DNA of 64,000 nt from Alphaproteobacteria bacterium. Lineage in GTDB: Bacteria; Pseudomonadota; Alphaproteobacteria; Micropepsales; Micropepsaceae. How positions within the stretch are numbered: the first letter of the stretch is position 1; each line of letters begins with the position of its first letter. The notes under the pieces were generated by a model. The model did not search any database, was not told where the DNA came from, and worked only from the letters and a program-made list of their open reading frames with translations. The position numbers were made by a program, and so were the translations under genes. Below, in pieces: positions 26,837 through 59,428 of this stretch. The DNA lies in the NCBI GenBank assembly GCA_019247845.1, contig JAFBAL010000045.1, positions 27,460-91,459 of the forward strand, written 5' to 3'.

Positions 26837-28453
26837 CTATTTCGCCTTGGCCTGCCTGAGGTCGGTCGAGACGTCGGCGAGCTTGGTCTCGAGCTTCATG
26901 GCGGCCAGCTGCGCATCGATGTGCAGCCGCTCGCTCATGAACAGCTGACGCTCCTTGCCCGAAAGCAGGCGGCCGGTGGCGACCTTGACCTTCAGCGGAT
27001 TGACCTGCGCGCCGCTGACCAGGATCTCGTAGTGCAGATGCGGGCCGGTCGACATGCCGGTATTGCCGCTATAGGCGACGATCTGGCCCTGATGCACGTG
27101 GCTGCCGGAATGGATGCCCGGCGCCAGACGCGACAGGTGGCCGTAGGCGGTGCCGTAGCCGTTCTGATGGTTGATGCGCAGGTAGTTGCCATAGCCGCCG
27201 AGGCGCCCGGCAATCTGCACCACGCCCGAGCCCGCGGCCATCACCGGCGTTCCCACCGGCACGGCGAAGTCGATGCCCTTGTGCATGCGGCTGTAGCCCA
27301 GCACCGGATGGAAGCGCATGCCGAAGCCCGACGAGATGCGCGCGCCGTCGACCGGCGTCTTCATCAGCATCGACTTGGCGCTCTGACCCTTGGCGTTGAA
27401 GTAGTCCGCCGGTTCCTTCGGATCGGGCTGGTAGCGATAGAGCGTGACCGTGCGTCCGCCCAGGTTCATCGTCACATAGCTGACGTCGCCCGCGCGCGCA
27501 TGTTCGCCGTCGGGCGTGTCGTAATAGCTGTAATAGACCTCGAAGGTGTTGCCGGGGCGCAGGTCGCGCTGGAAGTCCACCTCATAAGAGAAGACGTGGA
27601 TCATCTGCACGACGATGTCGGCCGGGATGCCGGCCTGGCGCGCCGCGAGATAGAGGCTGGAATCGATCGTGCCGCCGGCGCGGTGCTCGTGCCGGGCGAG
27701 CTGCTTGGTCGTCTGGTTGGCGACGAAGGCGCCGGACGCGTCGCGCGCGATGGTGATGTCCTGCTCGACCGACGGCGAGAACGAGATCGAGACGAGGTGG
27801 CTGACCGGCGTGGTCGTCGCGGGCTCGATCGGGCCGTTGGCGTCGGCGTCGTCCTCTTCGCCGGTCGTGGTGGAGAACTGCGAAGACTGCTCCGCCTCGT
27901 GCACCGCGGCCGGGTCGGTCGAATAGGTGATGTCGAAGGACTGTCCGGCGCGCAGGTCGCGCGAATCGTACACCTTGACCAGCGCGGCCACGGCCGCGGT
28001 GGCGTCGTCGCCCGAGATGCCCGCATCCTCGAGCGCGCCGGCCAGCGTGTCGCCCGAATCGAGCGTGACGGTGCGCGTCTCGATGCTGGGAGATTTCGGC
28101 TCGTCGTCGCTCTGGTCGAGGACCGGCGCGGGCGGGGCCTTCGGGCGGCTGTTTGACGCGGGTCCGAAGGGCGCGATCGAGGCATAGGCGCCGTCGGCCG
28201 AGCGGGTCAGCCGCTGGAAAAGCGTATAGGGAAGGAACGTCGAATGGCCTGAGGCGTTAGCACCATGGCCCTTCATCGGCGGCATGGTGCCGATGGCGAG
28301 CCAGGCGATCGATCCCGCGATCATCGCGGTCAGCGAGGTCGAGACGAGCGCCCAGCGGCCGTCGGTGCTGCCGAGGGCGGATGCGGCCGTGCGGGCGGAC
28401 TTCTGCCAGTCGTTGGCCGCGCTCAGAATCGTGAATTGGCTGCGTCGCTCCAC
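26837..28453 (-). CDS. M23 family metallopeptidase, cell-wall hydrolase or regulator
   Basis: A 538-residue bitopic protein. A short cytoplasmic start is followed by a membrane helix at about residues 35-55 (ALVSTSLTAMIAGSIAWLAIG). A LysM-like/OapA-type region (VTLDSGDTLAGALEDAGISGDDATAAVAALVKVYDSRDLRAGQSFDITY) comes next. The C-terminal LytM domain has metal ligands HKGID, the GNYLRINH strand, YGHL and HLHYE, so it looks catalytically complete. It should cleave peptidoglycan cross-bridges in the periplasm during growth or division. A Pro/Ser/Thr-rich linker connects the domains. Confidence 0.88.
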   Translation of the reverse strand: MERRSQFTILSAANDWQKSARTAASALGSTDGRWALVSTSLTAMIAGSIAWLAIGTMPPMKGHGANASGHSTFLPYTLFQRLTRSADGAYASIAPFGPASNSRPKAPPAPVLDQSDDEPKSPSIETRTVTLDSGDTLAGALEDAGISGDDATAAVAALVKVYDSRDLRAGQSFDITYSTDPAAVHEAEQSSQFSTTTGEEDDADANGPIEPATTTPVSHLVSISFSPSVEQDITIARDASGAFVANQTTKQLARHEHRAGGTIDSSLYLAARQAGIPADIVVQMIHVFSYEVDFQRDLRPGNTFEVYYSYYDTPDGEHARAGDVSYVTMNLGGRTVTLYRYQPDPKEPADYFNAKGQSAKSMLMKTPVDGARISSGFGMRFHPVLGYSRMHKGIDFAVPVGTPVMAAGSGVVQIAGRLGGYGNYLRINHQNGYGTAYGHLSRLAPGIHSGSHVHQGQIVAYSGNTGMSTGPHLHYEILVSGAQVNPLKVKVATGRLLSGKERQLFMSERLHIDAQLAAMKLETKLADVSTDLRQAKAK

Positions 28454-31707: not shown

Positions 31708-32517
31708 ATGGACATTGATCGTTACCTGCGACGCATCGGCATCGATGTCCGCCCGCGACCGGACCTCGAAGGTCTTCGTGCGCTTCACCGCGCCCATCTG
31801 CGCGCCATTCCTTACGAGAACCTGGACGTCCAGCTCGGCCGTCCGGTGACGATCGAGCGCAAGCCGACGCTCGAGAAGATCCTCGAGCGCGGCCGCGGCG
31901 GCTGGTGCTACGAGATGAACGGCACGCTGGGCTGGGCGCTCGAGGCGCTGGGCTTCAACGTCACGCGGCTCGCGGGCGCGGTGATGCGCGAAGCCTTCGG
32001 CGACCAGTTCGCCGGCAATCACCTCGTGCTGCTGGTCGAGCTTCCGGAAGGACTGTATTTCGCCGATGTCGGCTTCGGCGACGGCCCGCTGGAGCCTTTC
32101 CGCGTTGCGGAGGGGACGTTCTCCTGCAACGGCTTTGATTTCAATCTCGGCCGTCTCGACGAGACGTGGTGGCGCCTGCACAACCATCCCTATGGCGGCG
32201 CCAAGTCGTTCGACGTCACGCTCGCGCCCGCGGACGAGGCGCAGCTCGCCGGCATGTGCCACAGGCTGCAGACCGAAGACTGGTCGCCCTTCGTGCAGAA
32301 CCTCGTGGCGCAACGCCACACGCCCGAAGGTCTCGTCGTCCTGCGCGGCCGCGTGGTGCGCAAGGTGACGCCCGCAGGCTGTACCGACCGGATCCTGGAC
32401 AACGCCGACGAGCTGGTGCGCTTTCTCGACGAGGCCTTCGCCATCCGCGAGCCCGAAGCGGCGTCGTTATGGCCCAGGATCTGCGCACGTCATGAAACCA
32501 TGTTTGGAGGGAATTGA
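31708..32517 (+). CDS. nat: Arylamine N-acetyltransferase
   Basis: A 269-residue NAT, which transfers acetyl groups from acetyl-CoA to arylamines and hydrazines. The catalytic triad is complete: Cys in ERGRGGWCYEMNGTLGWALE, His in FAGNHLVLLVEL and Asp in YFADVGFGDGPLEPF. The N-terminal region YLRRIGIDVRPRPDLEGLRALHRAHLRAIPYENLDV is typical. The stop codon TGA overlaps the ATG of the next gene (TGATG), linking it with an alpha/beta hydrolase in a probable detoxification or catabolic pair. Confidence 0.93.
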   Translation: MDIDRYLRRIGIDVRPRPDLEGLRALHRAHLRAIPYENLDVQLGRPVTIERKPTLEKILERGRGGWCYEMNGTLGWALEALGFNVTRLAGAVMREAFGDQFAGNHLVLLVELPEGLYFADVGFGDGPLEPFRVAEGTFSCNGFDFNLGRLDETWWRLHNHPYGGAKSFDVTLAPADEAQLAGMCHRLQTEDWSPFVQNLVAQRHTPEGLVVLRGRVVRKVTPAGCTDRILDNADELVRFLDEAFAIREPEAASLWPRICARHETMFGGN

Positions 32518-33239
32518 TGCCGGCCGTTTTCGTTCACGGCGTGCCCGACACGCCCGGCGTCTGGGCGCCGACGCTCGCGAAGCTCGCGCGCCAGGACACG
32601 ATCGCGCTCAGGCTGCCCGGCTTCGGCTGCGCGCTGCCCGCGGGGTTCGAGCCGACCAAGGACAACTATGCGGCCTGGCTGGTCGCCGAGCTCGGCAAGT
32701 TATCCGGTCCCATCGATCTCGTCGGTCACGACTGGGGCGCGCTGCTGTGCTACCGCGCGCTGAGCCTCGAGCCCCGGCTGGTGCGCAGCTGGGCCGCGGG
32801 CGGCGCGCCGCTCGATCCCGATTATGTCTGGCACGACATGGCGCAGGCCTGGCAGACGCCCGGCGTCGGTGAAGAGGTGATGAAGCAGTTGATCCCCGAG
32901 GCGATGGCGCCGGGATTGATGGCGCAGGGCCAGCCGAAAGAGGTTGCCGAGGAATCCGCGGGCGCGCTCGACGCCACGATGAAAGCCGCGATCCTCTCGT
33001 TATACCGCTCCGCCAAGACCGTCGGCCGCGACTGGTACGACGACCTCGAGCGCATCGCGGCACCCGGCCTCGTCATCTTCGGTGAGCGCGATCCTTACGT
33101 GAACTGGACCTTCGGCGAGAAGCTCGCCCGGCATGTCGGCGCGCGGTTCGCGCTGATCAAGGATTGCGGCCATTGGTGGGAGGCCGAGAAGCCCGCAGAG
33201 GTGGCTGCGGCGCTGGAGGAATTCTGGGCGTCACTGTAG
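32517..33239 (+). CDS. Alpha/beta hydrolase with Asp nucleophile (dehalogenase/epoxide hydrolase-like)
   Basis: A 240-residue alpha/beta hydrolase: oxyanion-hole HGVPDTPGVW, nucleophile elbow VGHDWGALLCYRA with Asp instead of Ser, acid residue in IFGERDPYVNWTF and catalytic His in DCGHWWEAEKP. The Asp elbow places it with haloalkane dehalogenases, epoxide hydrolases and related enzymes, but the substrate cannot be fixed. GGAGGGA precedes the ATG at 32517. It is coupled to nat by TGATG. The 3' end overlaps the convergent esterase gene by nine bases. Confidence 0.83.
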   Translation: MPAVFVHGVPDTPGVWAPTLAKLARQDTIALRLPGFGCALPAGFEPTKDNYAAWLVAELGKLSGPIDLVGHDWGALLCYRALSLEPRLVRSWAAGGAPLDPDYVWHDMAQAWQTPGVGEEVMKQLIPEAMAPGLMAQGQPKEVAEESAGALDATMKAAILSLYRSAKTVGRDWYDDLERIAAPGLVIFGERDPYVNWTFGEKLARHVGARFALIKDCGHWWEAEKPAEVAAALEEFWASL

Positions 33240-33953
33240 GAAGCGGTCGAGCGCCGCGTTCAAGACGTCCGGCGGGACTTCGTGGCCGCCGTCGAAGGGA
33301 TGGAACGCGACGTCGTATCCCGCCGCCGACAGCGTGGCGGCGATGCGCTCGGCACCGCTGAACGGCAGCACGCGGTCGTTGCGTCCATGGCTGATGAAGA
33401 TGCGCGGGCTGCCGGCGCGCGCGCGGATGCGGAACAGGCCGGCGGAGAATGCGATCACGTCGCCGAACAGATCGCCGTTCGCCAGTCCCAGCGACAGCGC
33501 GAACGAGGCGCCGTCGGAGATGCCCGCAAGCGCGAGCCTTGCCACGGCGACGTGGGCGAAGGCCTGGTCCAGCGCATCGTCGATTGTGTCGGCGTCCTCG
33601 CTTTCGGGCATGTGATGCAGGTCCCAGGTCGCGTTGTGCGACTTCGGCGCCAGCACGAACATGCCCCGCGCGTCGGCCGCCGGCGCAAAATCTCTCGCCG
33701 TCGAAAGCGCATCTCCGCCTGCGCCGTGCAGCATCGCCAGCAGCGGCATCGGCGATTCCGGCGCGAACGTCTTGGGGACATAGAGCATCGCGCCGCCGCG
33801 CAGCGGGATGAAGGTGCCGGGCGAGGGGGCCGGCAGGGTCGGCGGCGACGGCCGCGAGACGAGGCGCCCGTCCTTGGCTGCACCGGCGCGCGCCGGCAGG
33901 CAAAGCGAAGCGGCGCCGATGAGACCGAGCACCGCCCGCCGCGTCTGTGTCAC
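33231..33953 (-). CDS. Secreted serine esterase (PHB-depolymerase/feruloyl-esterase-like), GTG start
   Basis: A 240-residue exported alpha/beta hydrolase. The leader MTQTRRAVLGLIGAASLCLPARAGA has a twin-arginine flavour. The oxyanion segment LLAMLHGAGGDALSTARDFAPAADARGMFVLAP, the serine elbow AGISDGASFALSLG, the acid region HGRNDRVLPF and the His motif FDGGHEVPPDV are all present. The GTG at 33953 overlaps the stop of the upstream seven-repeat gene (GTGA), so both are probably translated together. The natural ester substrate is unknown. Confidence 0.8.
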   Translation of the reverse strand: MTQTRRAVLGLIGAASLCLPARAGAAKDGRLVSRPSPPTLPAPSPGTFIPLRGGAMLYVPKTFAPESPMPLLAMLHGAGGDALSTARDFAPAADARGMFVLAPKSHNATWDLHHMPESEDADTIDDALDQAFAHVAVARLALAGISDGASFALSLGLANGDLFGDVIAFSAGLFRIRARAGSPRIFISHGRNDRVLPFSGAERIAATLSAAGYDVAFHPFDGGHEVPPDVLNAALDRFLQ

Positions 33954-35257
33954 GGGGTCAGCTCGTAGACCGTTCCGCCGTGATTGGCGCCGCCGTACTG
34001 GGTCGCGCCGTAGATCTTGCCATTCGCCGCGAAGGTCAGCGGCCCCGACGGGTTTTCGCCGTCGGTGCAGTTCGCCTGGCTGCAGAACCGGTAGAGCGTC
34101 GTGTGCGTCGATCCGCTCTGCTTGTAGATGACGCCGCCGTCGTTGCCGCCGCCGTCGGTGGTGATGCCGAACACCTCGCCGGCCGCGTTGAAGGCTACGG
34201 TGGTCGGGCTGCCGCCGTCGGGGCAATTCGTGCTGCAGAACAGGAACACGGTCGACTCCGTCCCGTTGGGCGCGATCTTGAAAAGCGTGCCGGGAACGTT
34301 GCCGCCGCCCTGGGCGCCGCCCCAGATATAGCCGTTCTTGGCCAGCGCGACGCCGGAGGACGGGAACCCGCCGTCGCCGCAGCCCACTTGCGGGCAGAAG
34401 GAATAGGCCAGGCTTTCGTTCCAGGTCGGCGCGCCCTTGGCCTTGACCAGCTTGAAGACCGCGCCGTGCTGATGCGCTCCGCCGCCCATCGCCGTGCCGA
34501 GCAGCGTCGTGGCGTTGGCCACGACGAGCTGACCTAGCGGCTGCCAGCCGTCGGTGCAGCTGCCGAGTTTGGGGCAGAAGCGGTAGAGCACGCTGTAGGC
34601 CCAGCGCTTTTCGGTCCTGGGATATATGCGATAGAGCACGCCGCACCCGCCGCCGAAGCAGGAGCCGTCGTCCTGCTTGCCGCCCGAGGCAAGGCCGTAG
34701 AGCGGCGTGGCACCGTCATAGAGCTTGCCGTCCTTCTGTCCGAGATAGGCGAGGCCGTAGTTGGGTCGATAGCCGTTGTCGCATGTGGGCGTGGAGGTGG
34801 AGGTGCAGAACGAATACAGCGTCTTGAGCTTCCATTTCGTGCGGTCGGCGTTGGGGCTGAGGCGGAAAATCGATCCGACGCGTCCCTTGCCGCCGAAATT
34901 CGTCACGCCGTAGAGCGCGCCGTTCGTGTCCAGAACCAGATGCCCGGTGGGATTTCCGCCGTCGGCGCAATCCGGCTCCGAACAGAAGGTATGGACAACC
35001 TGATGCGTCCAGGTCCCGTCGCCGTTGGGGGTGAGCGCGTAGACCGTGCCGTAGCCGTCGGGGCCCCCATTGTAGGTCGCGCCATAAAGCGTTCCGGACG
35101 CGTCCATGGTCACGCCGCCGGTCGGCACGACGCCGCCGGCGCAGTCGAAGGCGCCGCAGAAGTCGTGAATCGTCTTGAGCGTCGCGGCATCGGCCCGCGA
35201 TGCGAGCATGCTCATGGCCGCCGCGAGCAGCGACAGCATCAAACCCCGAACGCGCAT
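33950..35257 (-). CDS. Secreted seven-repeat GloVer-type protein, Cys pair in every repeat
   Basis: A 435-residue exported protein: signal MRVRGLMLSLLAAAMSMLASRADA, then seven repeats of about 50-60 residues. Each contains an aromatic-Phe-Cys start, C-x-DG, a P-x-G turn, G-x-LYG-x-T and a closing G-x-V/I-x-L. The cysteine pair recurs in all seven (DFCGAFDC, TFCSEPDC, SFCTSTSTPTC, RFCPKLGSC, SFCPQVGC, LFCSTNC, RFCSQANC). The motif set is that of the TIGR03803 GloVer repeats, and seven units suggest a seven-bladed propeller. It lies between an acyl-adenylating enzyme gene and an esterase gene in one operon. The function is unknown. Confidence 0.87.
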   Translation of the reverse strand: MRVRGLMLSLLAAAMSMLASRADAATLKTIHDFCGAFDCAGGVVPTGGVTMDASGTLYGATYNGGPDGYGTVYALTPNGDGTWTHQVVHTFCSEPDCADGGNPTGHLVLDTNGALYGVTNFGGKGRVGSIFRLSPNADRTKWKLKTLYSFCTSTSTPTCDNGYRPNYGLAYLGQKDGKLYDGATPLYGLASGGKQDDGSCFGGGCGVLYRIYPRTEKRWAYSVLYRFCPKLGSCTDGWQPLGQLVVANATTLLGTAMGGGAHQHGAVFKLVKAKGAPTWNESLAYSFCPQVGCGDGGFPSSGVALAKNGYIWGGAQGGGNVPGTLFKIAPNGTESTVFLFCSTNCPDGGSPTTVAFNAAGEVFGITTDGGGNDGGVIYKQSGSTHTTLYRFCSQANCTDGENPSGPLTFAANGKIYGATQYGGANHGGTVYELTP

Positions 35258-35268
35258 GGCAGTTCCCC

Positions 35269-36858
35269 CTAGGCCGCCCCTTCGGCCGGCAGCATCTTCT
35301 GCACCCCGACATAGTCGGTCTTGCCGGTGCCGAGCACCGGAATCTCGTCGACGACGACGATGCGCCGCGGAATGGCGAGCTCGGAGACACCGTGGTTGTG
35401 AGCCCAGCCCACGATGTCGTGGCGGTTGGCGTCCTTGTTGTTGGTGACGAGCACGATCTGCTCGCCCTTGCGGCCGTCGGGCACGGTGATCGCGGCGTGG
35501 CTGAAATCGGGCCACAGCGCCGAGGCGCAGCTCTCGACCACCGCTAGCGACACCGACTCGCCGCCGATCTTGGCGAAGCGCTTCAGCCGCCCCTTGATCG
35601 CGATGAAGCCGTCCTCGTCGACCGAGACGACGTCGCCGGTATCGTGCCAGCCGCCCGCCGGGGGATCGATCCTGCCCGGCGCTTCGGGGCGCAGATAGCC
35701 GAGCATCACGTTCGGACCCTTCACGACCAGGCGCCCGGCATTGGGGATGCCTTCGACGGGTTCGAGGCGATACTGCATGTCGGCCATCATCTGGCCGACC
35801 GTGCCGGGGCGGTTGGCGCCCGGACGGTTCGCCGCGATCACGGGCGAGGTCTCGGTCACGCCATAGCCCTCGAGCAGCTCGATGCCGTGCTTGCGCCGCA
35901 AGAGCGCGCGCGTCTCGTCGCGCAGCCGCTCGGCGCCACAGACCGTCAGGCGCAGCGACGACAGATCGCCGGGCTCGCCGACGCGCGCATATTGCGTGAT
36001 GAAGGTGTCGGTCGAGACCAGGATCGTCGCCTTGTGCTTTTTGATGCGCGCGACGATCTCCTTCGGCTGCAGGGGCGTGGGATGGCAGACGACCTTCAAG
36101 CCCAGAAGCGGCGGCATCAGCGAGCCGACCGTCAGGCCGAAGCAATGGAAGGCGGGCAGGGGGTTGAGCAGGATGTCGGTCGGATAGAGCGCCAGGTGCA
36201 CGCGCACCTGCTCGACGTTGGCGAGCAGGTTGCGATGCGACAGCGCCACGCCCTTCGGCTCGCCCTCGGTGCCCGAGGTGAACAGGATCACCGCCGGCGA
36301 ATCCGGCGACGGGCGCTTGGTCACGAGGCTGGGGAAGATCGAGCCCACGACCGCGGCCAGCTTGTCGACGATCGAAAGCTTGCCGCGCAGCTCTTCCAGA
36401 TAGACGATCTCGAAGTCGCGGGAGAGCTCCTCGACCAGCGGCTTCAGGCCGGCCATGTCGACCAGGCGCTTGGCGGTGGCGATCTTCTTCACCTGCGCCG
36501 TGCGCAGCGCCGATTTGATCGCGGCCGCGCCCGAGGTGAAGTTCAGCATCGCCGGCACGCGGCCGTAAGCCGAGAGCGCGAGGAAAGTCGCGATCGCGCC
36601 GGCGCCGGTCGGCAGCATCACGCCCACGCACTCGCCGGCCTTGGTGCCCGCCTTCAGCGCATGGCCGAGCGCCAGCGCGCCGCGCATGATGTCGTCATAG
36701 CTGCGCTCGCTGTCGTCGACGTCGGCGATGCATATCCTGGAGCCGCCGAACTCGGCGCGCGCCCTGACGAAGGCGCGGAACACGGGCCTGCCGGTGCTCG
36801 AGATATCGAAAGGGCAGACGTCCTCGCCGGAAGCAGCGGCAATCGTGGATAGTGTCAA
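35269..36858 (-). CDS. Acyl-CoA/acyl-ACP synthetase (AMP-binding), Aas C-domain-like
   Basis: A 529-residue adenylate-forming enzyme. The core motifs are A3 ILFTSGTEGEPKGVALSHRN, A5 EGYGVTETSPVIAANR, A7-8 GWHDTGDVVSVDEDGFIAIKGRLKRFAKIGGE and the C-terminal catalytic Lys region PVLGTGKTDYVGVQK. It resembles the acyl-ACP synthetase half of Aas (2-acylglycerophosphoethanolamine acyltransferase) without the acyltransferase half. It should activate free fatty acids for membrane lipid repair or uptake. It heads an operon with the secreted seven-repeat protein gene 11 bases downstream and then the esterase gene. Confidence 0.87.
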   Translation of the reverse strand: MTLSTIAAASGEDVCPFDISSTGRPVFRAFVRARAEFGGSRICIADVDDSERSYDDIMRGALALGHALKAGTKAGECVGVMLPTGAGAIATFLALSAYGRVPAMLNFTSGAAAIKSALRTAQVKKIATAKRLVDMAGLKPLVEELSRDFEIVYLEELRGKLSIVDKLAAVVGSIFPSLVTKRPSPDSPAVILFTSGTEGEPKGVALSHRNLLANVEQVRVHLALYPTDILLNPLPAFHCFGLTVGSLMPPLLGLKVVCHPTPLQPKEIVARIKKHKATILVSTDTFITQYARVGEPGDLSSLRLTVCGAERLRDETRALLRRKHGIELLEGYGVTETSPVIAANRPGANRPGTVGQMMADMQYRLEPVEGIPNAGRLVVKGPNVMLGYLRPEAPGRIDPPAGGWHDTGDVVSVDEDGFIAIKGRLKRFAKIGGESVSLAVVESCASALWPDFSHAAITVPDGRKGEQIVLVTNNKDANRHDIVGWAHNHGVSELAIPRRIVVVDEIPVLGTGKTDYVGVQKMLPAEGAA

Positions 36859-37000: not shown

Positions 37001-38227
37001 CTAAGGCGTGAACTCGAACACCGTGCCGGAGCCCGCGCCGCCGCCATGGACGGTCACGCCGTAGAAATGGTTGTGACCGTCGCCGGCCAGCGAACCCAGG
37101 GGACCCGAACCGTCCGCGCAATCGCTCTGCGCGCAGAAGGAATAGAGCGTGCGGAACTGGCCGCTCAGCGCGAAGATCGCGCCGGCGTCGTTCGTGCCGC
37201 CCTGGTTGGTCACGCCGAGCAGGCGCGTCGCACCGGCCGGCGTGAGACCGCCGAACGGAGACGAACCGTCGGAGCAGTCCAAGTTCGGGCAGAAAGCGTG
37301 CAGCACCGTCTCAGTGCCGTCCGGCGCGAGCTTGTAGGCGACGCCGCAGCATGCATCGCCACGGCCGCCGATGAAGGTCGTGCCGATGAGATTGCCGGCG
37401 GCATCGAGCGTCGCGCTGTTGGAGATGGGCGTGGAGCCGTCGGGGCATCCGGCCTTGGCGCAGAAATCGTAGAGCACCGTCTCTTTCCAATTGCCCGCGG
37501 CGGGCGCCAGCTTGAACGCGACGCCCCCGACGTATTTGCCGCCGCTCGCGGTGACGCCGTAGAGGTTGCCGCCGCCATCCATCGTCAGCGTATCGAAGGG
37601 CGACCAGCCGTCGCGGCACTGGGCGCGGCGGCAGAAGGTGTAGATGACCTCGTAGTCCCACGTCGCGCCGTTCGGCGTCAGCGAGAAGACGGTGCCGTGC
37701 GCGGTGCGTCCGCCGATCGCCGATGGGCCATAGAGCGGCGAGGTGCCGTCATAAGGAAGACCGGCGGCCGCACCCCGATAGGTCAGCGCGCCTTCGCTGG
37801 CATAGCGATTCTGCGCGAAGCGGTGCAGCACCTTGTAAGCGCCGTCGGGCGACAGGCGGAAGATCTCGCCCCCGCGTTGAACGCCGTTGGGCGCGGCCGT
37901 GCCGTAGAGATTGCCCGCACCATCGACGATCAGGGGCGAGCTCGGGATCAACCCGGCGCCCGTGGTGAAGCTGTAGAGCGTCGTCAGCGTCCAGCCATGC
38001 GCGCCCGGGCTCAGCCTGTAGATCGTGCCCAGGTTCTGCGTCGCCACGCCGGTCGTGCCGTAGAGGTTCCCCGCCGCGTCGCGCACCGGTGCCGATTGCG
38101 GCGGCGTGCCGTCGAACGCATAGAGCGTCTTGAGGCCATGGGCCCCCGCCGAGCCGCAAAGCGCCAGGGCGGCGGCTGCGATGGCAAAGTTGCGCAGGCC
38201 GGCGCGGGCGAGATATTTCAGGCTCAT
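37001..38227 (-). CDS. Secreted seven-repeat GloVer-type protein, mixed repeat types
   Basis: A 408-residue exported protein: signal MSLKYLARAGLRNFAIAAAALALCGSAGA followed by seven repeats. Repeats 1-3 lack the cysteine pair (YAFDGTPPQ, YSFTTGAG, HRFAQNRY). Repeats 4-7 have it (TFCRRAQC, DFCAKAGC, AFCPNLDC, SFCAQSDC). Each unit carries the G-NLYGTT and G-G-x-V/I-F-x-L marks. The ATG at 38227 follows AAGGGAG at eight bases and is preferred over upstream Met codons. A 142-base gap separates it from the acyl-synthetase gene, so it probably has its own promoter. Confidence 0.86.
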   Translation of the reverse strand: MSLKYLARAGLRNFAIAAAALALCGSAGAHGLKTLYAFDGTPPQSAPVRDAAGNLYGTTGVATQNLGTIYRLSPGAHGWTLTTLYSFTTGAGLIPSSPLIVDGAGNLYGTAAPNGVQRGGEIFRLSPDGAYKVLHRFAQNRYASEGALTYRGAAAGLPYDGTSPLYGPSAIGGRTAHGTVFSLTPNGATWDYEVIYTFCRRAQCRDGWSPFDTLTMDGGGNLYGVTASGGKYVGGVAFKLAPAAGNWKETVLYDFCAKAGCPDGSTPISNSATLDAAGNLIGTTFIGGRGDACCGVAYKLAPDGTETVLHAFCPNLDCSDGSSPFGGLTPAGATRLLGVTNQGGTNDAGAIFALSGQFRTLYSFCAQSDCADGSGPLGSLAGDGHNHFYGVTVHGGGAGSGTVFEFTP

Positions 38228-38328: not shown

Positions 38329-39267
38329 ATGACGATCGTCATCGACAACACCGCGCGCCATCCCGAAAAGGCGCACCGCCCCGACAACCCGGTCCAGCGC
38401 AAGCCGGACTGGATCCGCGTCAAGGCGCCGGTGAGCCGCGAATACGCGGTGACGCGCGAGATCGTGCGCGAGCACAAGCTTCACACGGTCTGCGAAGAGG
38501 CGGCGTGCCCGAACATCGGCGAGTGCTGGACCCATCGCCACGCGACGATGATGATCTTGGGCGACACCTGCACGCGCGCCTGCGCATTCTGCAACGTCAA
38601 GACCGGGCTGCCCGGCGCGCTGGACGAAGGCGAGCCCGAGAACGTCGCACGCGCGGTCGCCAAACTCGGCTTGAAGCACGTCGTCGTGACCTCGGTCGAC
38701 CGCGACGATCTCGCCGACGGCGGCGCCGGCCATTTCGCGCGCACCATCCGCGCCATTCGGGCCGCGAGCCCGGACACCAGCATCGAGGTGCTGACGCCCG
38801 ACTTCCTGCGCAAGGACGGCGCGCTGGACGTCGTGATGGACGCGCGTCCCGACGTCTTCAACCACAATCTCGAGACCGTGCCGCGGCTCTATCTGTCGGT
38901 GCGGCCCGGCGCGCGCTATTTCGCGTCGCTGCGCCTGCTCGAGCGCGCCAAGGAACTGGTGCCGGACGGCTTCACCAAGTCGGGGCTGATGGTCGGCCTG
39001 GGCGAGAGCCGCGAAGAGATCATGCAGGTGATGGACGACCTGCGCGCCGCGCGCGTCGATTTCCTCACCATCGGGCAGTATCTCCAGCCGACCCGCAAGC
39101 ACGCCGCGCTCGCGCGGTTCTGGACGCCGGAGGAATTCAAAGGATTGGAACAGGTCGCGCGGGCGAAGGGCTTCCTGATGGTGTCGGCGAGCCCGCTGAC
39201 GCGCTCGTCCTATCATGCCGATGCCGATTTTGCTCGGATGAAGGCCGCGCGCCAGTCGCAGGGATGA
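38329..39267 (+). CDS. lipA: Lipoyl synthase
   Basis: A 312-residue radical-SAM lipoyl synthase, which inserts two sulfurs into protein-bound octanoate. The auxiliary cluster ligands lie in [13 protein letters not shown] and the radical-SAM cluster in [14 protein letters not shown] (CX3CX2C). RSSY-like end LTRSSYHAD is also present. The length is standard. It begins a cluster with a SIMPL-domain gene and a RatA/COQ10 gene, the last being a common alphaproteobacterial neighbour of lipA. Confidence 0.96.
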
Positions 39268-53759: not shown

Positions 53760-55075
53760 CCTCCAAGCCCACCGACACGCGCAAGCACACCGCCTTCGTG
53801 CTCCATGTGGAGCCCAAGGCGCGCAAATCCGCGCTCGACCGCGACGCCGAGGCGCGGCTGGAGGAGGCGATCGGGCTGACCGCCGCCATCGGTCTGACGG
53901 TCGTGGGCAGCCATATCGCGCCGCTGGCGCGTCCGGTGCCGGCGACGCTCATCGGCAGCGGCAAGGTCGAGGAGATCGCGGCCGAGGCGCGGATGCTCGA
54001 GCCCGAGGTCATCGTCGTCAATGCACAGCTTTCGCCGATCCAGCAGCGCAATCTCGAGAAGGAATGGAAGACCAAGGTCCTCGACCGCACCGCGCTGATC
54101 CTTGAGATCTTCGGCGCGCGGGCGCAGACCCGCGAGGGCCGGCTTCAGGTCGAGCTGGCGCACCTGACCTATCAGCGCTCGCGGCTGGTCCGGTCCTGGA
54201 CCCACCTGGAGCGCCAGCGCGGCGGCTTCGGCTTCCTGGGCGGCCCCGGCGAGACGCAGATCGAGACCGACCGCCGCCTGATCGGCGAGCGCATCGTCAA
54301 GATCAAGTCCGAGCTCGAGGGCGTGAAGCGCACCCGCGGACTGCAGCGCCGCGCCCGCAAGCGCGTGCCGTTCCCGGTCGTCGCGCTGGTGGGGTACACC
54401 AATGCCGGCAAGTCGACGCTTTTCAACCGGCTGACCCAGGCGGATGTCCTGGCCAAGGACCTGCTGTTCGCGACCCTCGACCCGACCATGCGGGGGCTGA
54501 AGCTGCCGGGTGGCACCAAGGCCATCCTCTCCGACACCGTCGGCTTCATCGCCGACCTGCCGCACGAGCTGGTCGCCGCCTTCCGCGCCACGCTGGAGGA
54601 GGTGCTGGAGGCCGACGTGATCGCCCATGTCCGCGATGCCAGCCATGACGAGACCGAGGCGCAGAAGGCCGACGTGCTCAAGGTGCTCGCCGAGCTCGAC
54701 ATCGAAGGCGCCGATATCGAAATCCTCAACAAAATCGATCTGTTGGACGAGGATATTCGCGCAGGACTTCAAGCGCGTGGCAGGGGGAGGGAAGGGGCTC
54801 CGGTCGCCGTCTCGGCGCTGAGCGGCGACGGCCTCGACCTTCTACTCGCCCGGTTCGAGGCGCTGTTGACGCGTGACAACATCGAGCTTCGCCTGAGGCT
54901 TAGTCCGGAAGACGGCGAGGGTCTGGCCTGGGCCTACCGCCACGGCAGGGTCCGCGAGCGCCGCGACGGCGACGACGGCGTCGAGCTTCTGCTCACAGCC
55001 AGTCCACAGGATGCCGAACGCTTTTCCGCCCGATTTGGGGATAAGCTGTTGGTATGTGGACAAGACGGGGAGTAA
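53756..55075 (+). CDS. hflX: Ribosome-associated GTPase HflX, start codon unclear (possible CTG)
   Basis: A GTPase that splits stalled ribosomes. The N-domain [57 protein letters not shown] and [19 protein letters not shown] precede G1 [18 protein letters not shown]3 [17 protein letters not shown]4 LNKIDL and the G5 region. No ATG/GTG/TTG occurs where family proteins start (before [12 protein letters not shown]). The only frame-matching candidate there is a CTG overlapping the hfq TGA (CTGA). A GTG at 53798 and an ATG at 53624 inside hfq are the alternatives. 439 residues from CTG. Confidence 0.9.
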
Positions 55076-55944
55076 TCGCGGGCGCGGCGGTTGGGCCGCT
55101 TGTCGGCTCGCTTTCTTTCGCTGGGCTTCTGTCTTTCGCGGCAAGGGCCGGGGACAACCCCGCCGGCCTGATCCAGGCGATCGAGGCGCGGGCCGGTGGG
55201 CGGCTGGGCGTCGCCGCCCTCGACACCCAGACCGGGCGGCGCATCGCCTGGCGCGACGGCGAGCGCTTCCCGATGTGCTCGACCTTCAAGCTGCTGCTGG
55301 TGACGCGGGTGCTGGCCAAGGCCGACAAAGGCCAGGAGAGACTCGACCGCTGGGTCAAATACGGCAAGGACGATCTGCTCGACTATGCGCCGGTCGCCAG
55401 GGAGCATCTCGCCCAAGGCGGCATGACGGTGAAGGACCTGGCCGAGGCTGCCATCGTGTGGAGCGACAACACCTGCGCCAACCTGCTGCTCGCCGCCGAC
55501 GGCGGGCCCGCGGGCGTGACCGCGCAGGCGAGGGCGCTGGGCGACCCGGTCACGCGGCTCGACCGCAACGAGCCGACGCTCAACACCGCCATCCCCGGCG
55601 ACCCGCGCGACACGACCGCGCCTGCGGCGATGCTCGACGACATGGACCGCGTCCTGCTGGGCGACGCGCTGTCGGAGTCTTCGCGCGAGATGTTGACCGG
55701 TTGGATGATCGCCTGCCGGACCGCGCCGCGCCGCATCGGTGCCGGGCTGCCTTCGGGCTGGAAGCGCGGCCACAAGACGGGCACCGGCGCGAACGGCTCG
55801 ACCAACGACATCGCGATCTGCTGGCCGCCGGGGCGCAAGCCGATCCTGCTTACGGTCTATTTCACCGGCTCGAGCGCCGGCGACGACGAGCGCGAGGCCG
55901 CCATCGCCGATGTCGCGCGGATCGTGAGCGAGACTTTCGTTTGA
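55054..55944 (+). CDS. Class A beta-lactamase
   Basis: A 296-residue serine beta-lactamase. The leader [32 protein letters not shown] has a twin-arginine-like pair. The class A motifs are all there: nucleophile SxxK in MCSTFKLLLV (76-79), SDN (137-139), the omega-loop ExxLN in RNEPTLN (173-177) and KTG in GHKTGTGANG (241-243). The Cys before the catalytic Ser matches the position of the KPC/SME disulfide, but the partner position in KTGTG-A is Gly. It overlaps hflX by 22 bases, so it is a settled chromosomal gene. Spectrum cannot be predicted. Confidence 0.93.
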   Translation: MWTRRGVIAGAAVGPLVGSLSFAGLLSFAARAGDNPAGLIQAIEARAGGRLGVAALDTQTGRRIAWRDGERFPMCSTFKLLLVTRVLAKADKGQERLDRWVKYGKDDLLDYAPVAREHLAQGGMTVKDLAEAAIVWSDNTCANLLLAADGGPAGVTAQARALGDPVTRLDRNEPTLNTAIPGDPRDTTAPAAMLDDMDRVLLGDALSESSREMLTGWMIACRTAPRRIGAGLPSGWKRGHKTGTGANGSTNDIAICWPPGRKPILLTVYFTGSSAGDDEREAAIADVARIVSETFV

Positions 55945-55993: not shown

Positions 55994-57133
55994 ATGACCC
56001 GAGCGTTTCTCGCCGCGGCTTTCGCCGCCTCGCTTGCCGGTGGTGCCCATGCCGCCGCGACCGTCACTTTCCTCCACGTCTTCGACGGCGCCGACGGAGG
56101 CTGTGGGCCTCAGGCGGGGGTGACGTTCGACAGCGCGGGAAACCTCTACGGCACGACCGCCTCCTGCGGCGCGCTGCAAAGAGGCACGATCTACAAGCTT
56201 GCGCCCGACGGCACGTTCAGCGTGCTGAGCGACTTTTCCGAATCCGGCGCCGGGTTGGTGCCGGAGGGCGAGATGTCCAGGTCCCACACCGACAATTTCT
56301 TCGGCACCACGATCGGCGGCGGCGCCAATAACGGCGGCACGCTCTTCAGGTTCAGGCCCGCCGGCGGCCGGATGAATATCCTGCACGCATTCGCGGACGG
56401 CGCCGGTGGCCGCGATCCGCGCTACGCGCTATTGCGCGATAGAGACCGCACGATCTACGGCGTCGCTATCCAGGGCGGCAGCACCGGCCTGGGCACGGTG
56501 TACAAGCTCACCGAGGACGGCACCTATGCCGTGCTGCACGATTTCACGAATTTCCTTCTGGGCGAGACGCCGAGTTCGAATCTCGTCGCCGACGCGCAAG
56601 GCAATCTCTACGGCGCAGCCGGCGGTGGCCCCAACGACGCCGGGATCATCTACAAGATCGCGGCGGGCGGCGCCTATTCCATTCTCTATGCCTTCGGTTC
56701 GGTCCGACATGACGGCACAGGACCCAATGGACCGATCGCGATCGACGACGACGGCAACATCTATGGAACGGCGGGCGGCGGCCGGCACAGCTCCGGCGTC
56801 GTCTACAGGGTCGCGCCCGACGGCACCGAGACGATGCTGCATGTTTTCGGAGACTCGAAAGACGACGGTATCGGGCCCAATGGGCTGATGCTTTCGCGCG
56901 GCGCGCTCTACGGCACCACCTGGAGCATCCCGGACGACGTGGGGACGGTCTTCAAATACGCGATCACCCGCGGGCGCTTCCGCACGCTCTGCTCCTTCAA
57001 CGGGACAAAGGGCGAATTGCCGGCCGGGAGACTCCGGCGAGGGCCGGACGGCGCCATCTATGGCGTGACCCAGTTCAACACCAGACGCCCTTCCGCCGGG
57101 ACGATCTTCAAGCTTGTCGAGGGGATGCCCTAG
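55994..57133 (+). CDS. Secreted seven-repeat GloVer-type protein without the Cys pairs
   Basis: A 379-residue exported protein: signal MTRAFLAAAFAASLAGGAHAA, then seven repeats starting HVFDGADGG, SDFSESGAG, HAFADGAGG, HDFTNFLLG, YAFGSVRHD, HVFGDSKDD and CSFNGTKGE. Each has G-NLYGT/IYG and G-G-x-V/I-Y-x-L endings (SAGNLYGTT, GTIYKL). Almost all of the per-repeat cysteine pairs of the 34 and 37 kb relatives are absent. Seven units again suggest a seven-bladed propeller. The role is unknown. A plain ATG at 55994 leads the signal peptide. Confidence 0.85.
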   Translation: MTRAFLAAAFAASLAGGAHAAATVTFLHVFDGADGGCGPQAGVTFDSAGNLYGTTASCGALQRGTIYKLAPDGTFSVLSDFSESGAGLVPEGEMSRSHTDNFFGTTIGGGANNGGTLFRFRPAGGRMNILHAFADGAGGRDPRYALLRDRDRTIYGVAIQGGSTGLGTVYKLTEDGTYAVLHDFTNFLLGETPSSNLVADAQGNLYGAAGGGPNDAGIIYKIAAGGAYSILYAFGSVRHDGTGPNGPIAIDDDGNIYGTAGGGRHSSGVVYRVAPDGTETMLHVFGDSKDDGIGPNGLMLSRGALYGTTWSIPDDVGTVFKYAITRGRFRTLCSFNGTKGELPAGRLRRGPDGAIYGVTQFNTRRPSAGTIFKLVEGMP

Positions 57134-58524: not shown

Positions 58525-59428
58525 TCCTGGGACGGCGCCGCCAGCACTGAGACCATCCTCTATCAGTTCGACGGAAAGACCGACGGATCGACGCCGAGCA
58601 ATGCGCTCCTGCGCGACGGCAAGGGAAATCTCTACGGCACCACCGCGGGTGGCGGCGCGCACGGCCGGGGAATCGTGTTCAAGATCACGCCAAAGGGAAA
58701 GGAGACCCTCCTGCACGATTTCGCGGGCGGCGACGACGGCGCTGAGCCGTTCTCCAACGTCGTGATGGACAAGGACGGCAATCTTTACGGCACGACCGTC
58801 GACGGCGGCAACGGCCGTCAGCAGGGCGCCGATTGCGAAAACGACTGCGGCACGGTCTACAAGATGTCGCGCGGCGGCAACATCGCCATCCTGCATGCTT
58901 TTACCGGATTGGATGACGGCGGCGAGCCTTTCGGCGGCATCACCATCGATGCGCAAGGCAATACCTACGGCACCACGCAGAAGGCCGGTGCGGGCCACAA
59001 CGGCGTCTTGTTCAAGGTCACGCCGGAAGGGGCCTACAGCGTCGTTCATGCATTCGCCGGCGGCTCCGACGATGGCGCGCGGCCCATCGGGAACCTGACC
59101 CTGGACGATGCCGGGAATATCTACGGCAGGGCTTTGGGCGGACTCGGCAACTTGTTCAAAGTGACGCCGGAGGGCGCAGGATGCATTCGGGAACTTCTAC
59201 GGCGTCGCCGCCGGCGGCAGCAAGGAGACCCGCAAATGCAACGCCGGCTGCGGCATCGTCTATCGGCTCACCGCGGCGGGCAAGTTCAGCGTCCTGTACA
59301 GCTTCGGGGTGCATGACGACGGCGCCAATCCGGCAACACCGATCCTGGACGACAAGGGCGTGCTCTACGGCGTGACGGGCAGCGGCGGGGCGGGCAAGGG
59401 CGTGGTCTACAAGCTCAAGATCCGCTAG
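58525..59428 (+). pseudogene. Broken GloVer-type seven-repeat gene, deletion frameshift
   Basis: Directly after the JmjC stop the same frame encodes repeat units with no start or signal peptide: ETILYQFDGKTDG, HDFAGGDDG, HAFTGLDDG, HAFAGGSDDG, each with GNLYGTT or GNIYG. At about 59175 the frame breaks after VTPEGA. The next unit continues in another frame as DAFGNFYGVAAGG and YSFGVHDDG, ending KLKIR. The missing middle of one repeat (about 25 codons, not a multiple of three bases) shows a deletion, not a sequencing slip. The 5' end was also lost. Its TAG shares CTAG with mazG. Confidence 0.78.

Follow-up and report, generated by a model that had tools for sequence, protein, structure and literature searches.

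A tightly spaced acyl-ACP synthetase, GloVer propeller and esterase gene trio: probably a lineage-specific operon around an old gene

Introduction

Three genes on the minus strand of the window (the whole stretch of DNA that was analysed, 64,000 nucleotides) are so tightly spaced that a common function comes to mind. They code for an acyl-activating enzyme (AAS), a GloVer repeat protein (GV2) and an alpha/beta hydrolase (EST). A preliminary description of this DNA had proposed a small unit for the scavenging of lipids or polyesters, in which an exported esterase, an exported propeller-like protein and a cytoplasmic fatty-acid adenylating enzyme cooperate, and had suggested that other genomes be searched for the same gene order. 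The question is thus which of these adjacencies, if any, reflects a joint function.

Layout of the locus

The features of the locus and the GloVer genes of the window are as follows.

31708..32517, plus strand: arylamine N-acetyltransferase-like gene, convergent, kept in many relatives
32514..33239, plus strand: alpha/beta hydrolase gene (PF12697, 81 bits), convergent; 9 bases at its 3' end are shared with EST
33953-33231, minus strand: EST, 240 aa, GTG start
33950..33953, minus strand: overlap of the GV2 stop with the EST start, four bases, GTGA
35257-33950, minus strand: GV2, 435 aa, ATG start
35258..35268, minus strand: AAS-GV2 gap, 11 bases, GGGGAACTGCC; the GGGGAA inside is the likely ribosome-binding site of GV2
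36858-35269, minus strand: AAS, 529 aa, TTG start
37001..38227, minus strand: GV1, another gene with GloVer repeats, 142 bases upstream of AAS (TIGR03803, 207 bits)
38329..39267, plus strand: lipA (lipoyl synthase), divergent from AAS and conserved as its neighbour in the genus
55994-57133 and 58675-59316: GloVer genes, listed for the window together with GV1 (37001-38227) and GV2 (33950-35257)

The three reading frames, their 11-base spacing and the GTGA overlap are found in the sequence as they had been described. Coding periodicity is strong in all three frames (GC3 of 0.91, 0.87 and 0.87 for AAS, GV2 and EST, versus GC2 of 0.47, 0.55 and 0.54). It is likely that the genes are co-transcribed, because no minus-strand terminator-like site was seen between them. 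A promoter and terminator scan of the locus gave nothing above chance, and Rfam returned zero matches between positions 28000 and 45000. Profile matches, periodicity and spacing agree with the families and the operon arrangement given in the preliminary description.

Functional assignment of the three proteins

AAS carries an AMP-binding domain (PF00501, 220 bits). By far its best NCBIfam match is NF005291/PRK06814 (660 bits, model positions 624-1130 of 1140), the model for acyl-ACP--phospholipid O-acyltransferase. AAS covers only the acyl-ACP synthetase half of this model, and its score lies below the full-length cut-off of 1349. The remaining part of the model corresponds to LplT plus PlsC. 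The adenylation P-loop (TSGTEGEPKG) is present, as is the C-terminal catalytic lysine (GTGK, within LGTGKTDY). AAS is probably a stand-alone acyl-ACP synthetase of the type represented by the C-terminal half of Aas, so that the attribution as a fatty-acid adenylating enzyme is borne out by PF00501 and by the synthetase half of PRK06814. The full length of AAS aligns with the synthetase half of the bifunctional 2-acyl-GPE acyltransferase/acyl-ACP synthetase Aas (PRK06814/PRK08043, with LplT as partner). Aas has, however, LplT and PlsC acyltransferase halves, both of which are absent from AAS (only AMP-binding domains were found in profile searches of its 529 residues). LplT-Aas has been described as a system of lysophospholipid remodelling (PMC11416262).

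Vibrio harveyi AasS and Chlamydia AasC are stand-alone acyl-ACP synthetases, and AAS is likewise a single-domain adenylating enzyme. AasS has been described (PMC11271967); free fatty acid and ACP are the substrates expected for a single-domain adenylating enzyme. AAS is, however, remote in sequence from the known stand-alone enzymes: the solved acyl-ACP synthetase 8hsy reaches 71 bits, and the fatty acid-ACP ligase model PRK06334 reaches 230 bits versus a cut-off of 847. Judged by its family, AAS would activate a free fatty acid with ATP, load it on ACP and return it to lipid synthesis; the product would putatively be acyl-ACP rather than acyl-CoA.

EST scores above the Pfam cut-offs of PF02230 (31.9 bits versus 23) and PF00756 (26.5 versus 22). 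It has a catalytic triad (Ser146/Asp193/His224) with the motifs GISDG (the G-x-S-x-G nucleophile), HGRND and GGHE, and a Tat-like signal at its N-terminus (TRRAVLGL). All three EST orthologues, from the window and from the related genomes G035 and G089, share the triad and the twin arginine. EST is likely an exported serine alpha/beta hydrolase (esterase), as had been proposed, and would, after Tat export to the periplasm or the medium, cleave an ester outside the cytoplasm. Its best model is that of type 1 short-chain PHA depolymerases (NF050058), with 60 bits for EST, 73 and 64 bits for the orthologues and a cut-off of 150. Because these scores are far under the cut-off, EST was not assigned to this family, and the proposed polyester role is hinted at by the best match of all three proteins and goes no further. 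Extracellular type 1 short-chain PHA depolymerases and feruloyl/carboxyl esterases (NF050058; LC-Est1C, 3wyd) are the best distant relatives of EST, which has the Ser-Asp-His triad. EST differs from the depolymerases in its low score and in being short, with a single domain and a Tat-like signal. A structure model of EST, computed from two sequences, was too poor for use (pLDDT 46).

GV2 contains 6 GloVer repeats (TIGR03803, 160 bits versus a cut-off of 44), and GV1, too, is well above this cut-off. Both thus resemble the GloVer choice-of-anchor tandem repeat proteins but are without a C-terminal anchor past the last repeat. Such a surface anchor is frequent in GloVer proteins and not required; GV2 ends at its last repeat (...GTVYELTP). 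A signal-like stretch was seen upon inspection of the N-terminus, and GV2 is likely exported, which is in line with the secreted protein of the preliminary description. An AlphaFold (AF2) model of GV2 from four sequences is all-beta (pLDDT 77, pTM 0.83). In Foldseek, this model is best matched in the PDB by propellers, first by PLL2 and PHL, which are sugar-binding lectins of Photorhabdus, and then by sialidases and paraoxonase. With TM-scores of only 0.4-0.6, the matches are insufficient to identify a ligand. The earlier guess of a propeller holds at the level of the predicted fold. In the open papers searched, nothing was found on the GloVer/TIGR03803 family. An origin of GV1 and GV2 by tandem duplication was rejected, as five other GloVer genes of the genome outscore GV1 against GV2.

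Gene order around AAS in related genomes

Up to 20 kb around AAS were fetched from the genome of the window (G000) and from its relatives, and the neighbours were mapped for roughly 55 AAS loci. Of the 51 loci with sufficient flank, 49 have AAS and lipA in divergent orientation (exceptions: G089 and G090), and lipA itself is mostly 77-90% identical within the genus. By this pattern, AAS is inherited genus-wide and is the old gene of the locus. The genes downstream of AAS vary: a co-directional PhaZ gene in 26 loci, bacterioferritin in 18, and N-acetyltransferase or other genes elsewhere.

The order AAS-GloVer-EST was found in no locus besides that of the window. Among the genomes examined, this one alone has the trio, and the proposed conserved three-gene unit is thus not supported. 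What recurs beyond close strains is the AAS-EST pair, which is present in G035 and G089. G035 is the nearest relative (AAS 88% identical) and has the order lipA-GV1-AAS-EST, its GV1 positional counterpart being 53% identical. G013 (AAS 85% identical) has neither a GloVer gene nor EST at the AAS locus.

Tandem duplicates of AAS were seen in G007, G010, G026, G033, G076, G077 and G080 (e.g., loci L086, L087, L088, L091, L255 and L261). The copies have about 57-61% and 64-69% identity to AAS from the window and, in the neighbourhoods that were fetched, adjoin lipA. In L106 (G003) and L102 (G029), AAS is represented by two overlapping frames (frameshift or assembly error).

The AAS-EST pair

Among the same-genus genomes searched, EST orthologues with more than 45% identity are restricted to G035 (56%) and G089 (48%). 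In both, EST immediately follows AAS on its downstream side, after gaps of 159 and 52 bases, respectively. In G089, no lipA is near AAS within the fetched 20 kb, so that the pair has outlasted a relocation. The AAS genes of L250 (G089) and L251 (G090) have a PleD-type response regulator nearby in place of lipA, which still adjoins AAS in the sister genome G096.

In the AAS tree, G000/G035/G013 and G089/G090/G096 form separate, well-supported clades. Since the pair occurs in both clades, either a single gain was followed by several losses or it was assembled twice. We take the adjacency as modest evidence for a functional coupling of AAS and EST. This evidence is weaker than it appears because only three genomes carry the pair; two of these probably hold it by common descent, and shared ancestry with losses among the relatives could account for it in the absence of coupling.

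The AAS-EST gap of G035 (L074:10542-10700) contains an inverted repeat with arms of over 20 bases each, located around CATGGCCCGCGAATGCGGGCCACCCAG and its complement. It fills the gap that is occupied by GV2 in the window and resembles an interspersed palindromic element; it may separate the expression of AAS and EST in G035. A GloVer remnant was looked for between these two genes of G035, and none was seen.

GloVer genes across the genome and the family

For the genome of the window, 151 GloVer matches are listed, corresponding to about 37 genes, 36 of which were detected by a simple gene caller. These genes are scattered, with neighbours that include GMP synthase, glutamine synthetase, methylmalonyl-CoA mutase and Clp protease; no Pfam family accounts for more than 2 of the 45 neighbours. 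Six of the 24 non-GloVer upstream neighbours are co-directional and within 60 bases, and short gaps ahead of GloVer genes are therefore common in this genome. In the window, a class A beta-lactamase with a twin-arginine start (55054-55944) is followed after 49 bases by the GloVer gene at 55994-57133.

GloVer repeats occur in 9 of 96 genomes of the family, all nine from the genus of the window, and in none of the remaining 87. The number of GloVer matches listed is 18 in G004 and at least 62 in each of the other eight carriers; the first look gave 37 candidates in G004 and 86 to 378 in the other carriers. The GloVer genes have thus undergone a burst within a single alphaproteobacterial genus, in a few of its species.

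The best matches of GV2 in G013 and G035 have about 40-43% identity, with numerous paralogs, and an ortholog was not found in the genus genomes searched. GV2 is probably a recent local insertion, by chance, into the gap between AAS and EST. In genomes with such a GloVer load, a propeller gene beside an enzyme gene is almost uninformative on function.

Interpretation of the locus

We favor, with some confidence, an ordinary lineage-specific operon around the old AAS gene, with EST as a possible supplier of acids and GV2 as a passenger. The acid released by EST may pass through the membrane and then be reclaimed by AAS, as the stable adjacency of their genes suggests. GV2 would be one of the about 37 exported GloVer propellers of this genome, and is probably a recent arrival that is likely co-transcribed by its position. 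On the evidence at hand, it would be a passenger with respect to the AAS-EST pathway. As far as the sequences tell, the pair is clade-restricted and all parts are from known families.

It is also conceivable, if rather unlikely, that all adjacencies are accidental. AAS would then be conserved beside lipA for a job of its own, and EST and GV2 would be accessory genes without relation to it that are read through. The variability downstream of AAS within the genus (bacterioferritin or PhaZ in many loci, N-acetyltransferase or others elsewhere) is consistent with this, as are insertions that differ even between G000 and G035. However, all EST orthologues found directly follow AAS, and this includes G089, which lacks the lipA neighbour.

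We regard as improbable the scavenging unit in its original form, i.e., a co-evolved trio in which EST frees fatty or hydroxy acids, GV2 binds the substrate or the cell surface and AAS activates the acid. Tight spacing with the GTGA overlap, a propeller fold closest to sugar-binding lectins, recurrence of the AAS-EST pair and retention of the upstream GV1 in G035 would fit such a unit. Yet a second genome with the trio is missing among those examined, GV2 is without an ortholog, and all over the genome GloVer genes have unrelated neighbours.

Very improbable is a role of EST as a replacement PHA depolymerase in a clade that keeps PHA synthase and is without the intracellular PhaZ found downstream of AAS in relatives (26 loci): PF06850 was not found in G000, G035, G013, G003 and G011, PhaC_N is present in G000, G035 and G013, and the best match of the ESTs is the type 1 PHA depolymerase model, but an exported enzyme with a Tat-like signal misses the cytoplasmic PHA granules, G013 is without both PhaZ and EST, the scores of 60-73 are about half of the cut-off or less, the absence of PhaZ refers to the PF06850 type alone, and G000 is 92% complete. 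PF06850 is absent from all five GloVer-rich genomes tested, three of which were checked for PhaC_N and retain it, and is present in 21 of 31 GloVer-free congeners tested, a contrast that ignores shared ancestry.

Conclusions

A lineage-specific operon with a possible acid supplier and a passenger propeller thus remains the preferred reading of the locus. This corrects a tempting guilt-by-association call on a propeller and its enzyme neighbours. It is tempting to speculate further that AAS-EST is a clade-specific acid-recapture pair kept through rearrangement, and that the GloVer propellers are diversified surface lectins that deliver esters to exported hydrolases; we consider this a long shot. 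An exported esterase and a stand-alone acyl-ACP synthetase could provide a route from substrate to lipid in a mostly uncultured alphaproteobacterial genus. The carrier species have tens to hundreds of GloVer repeats per genome, and most relatives have none. With GloVer-rich and GloVer-free species side by side, this genus offers a sharply bounded natural experiment on the function of GloVer propellers.
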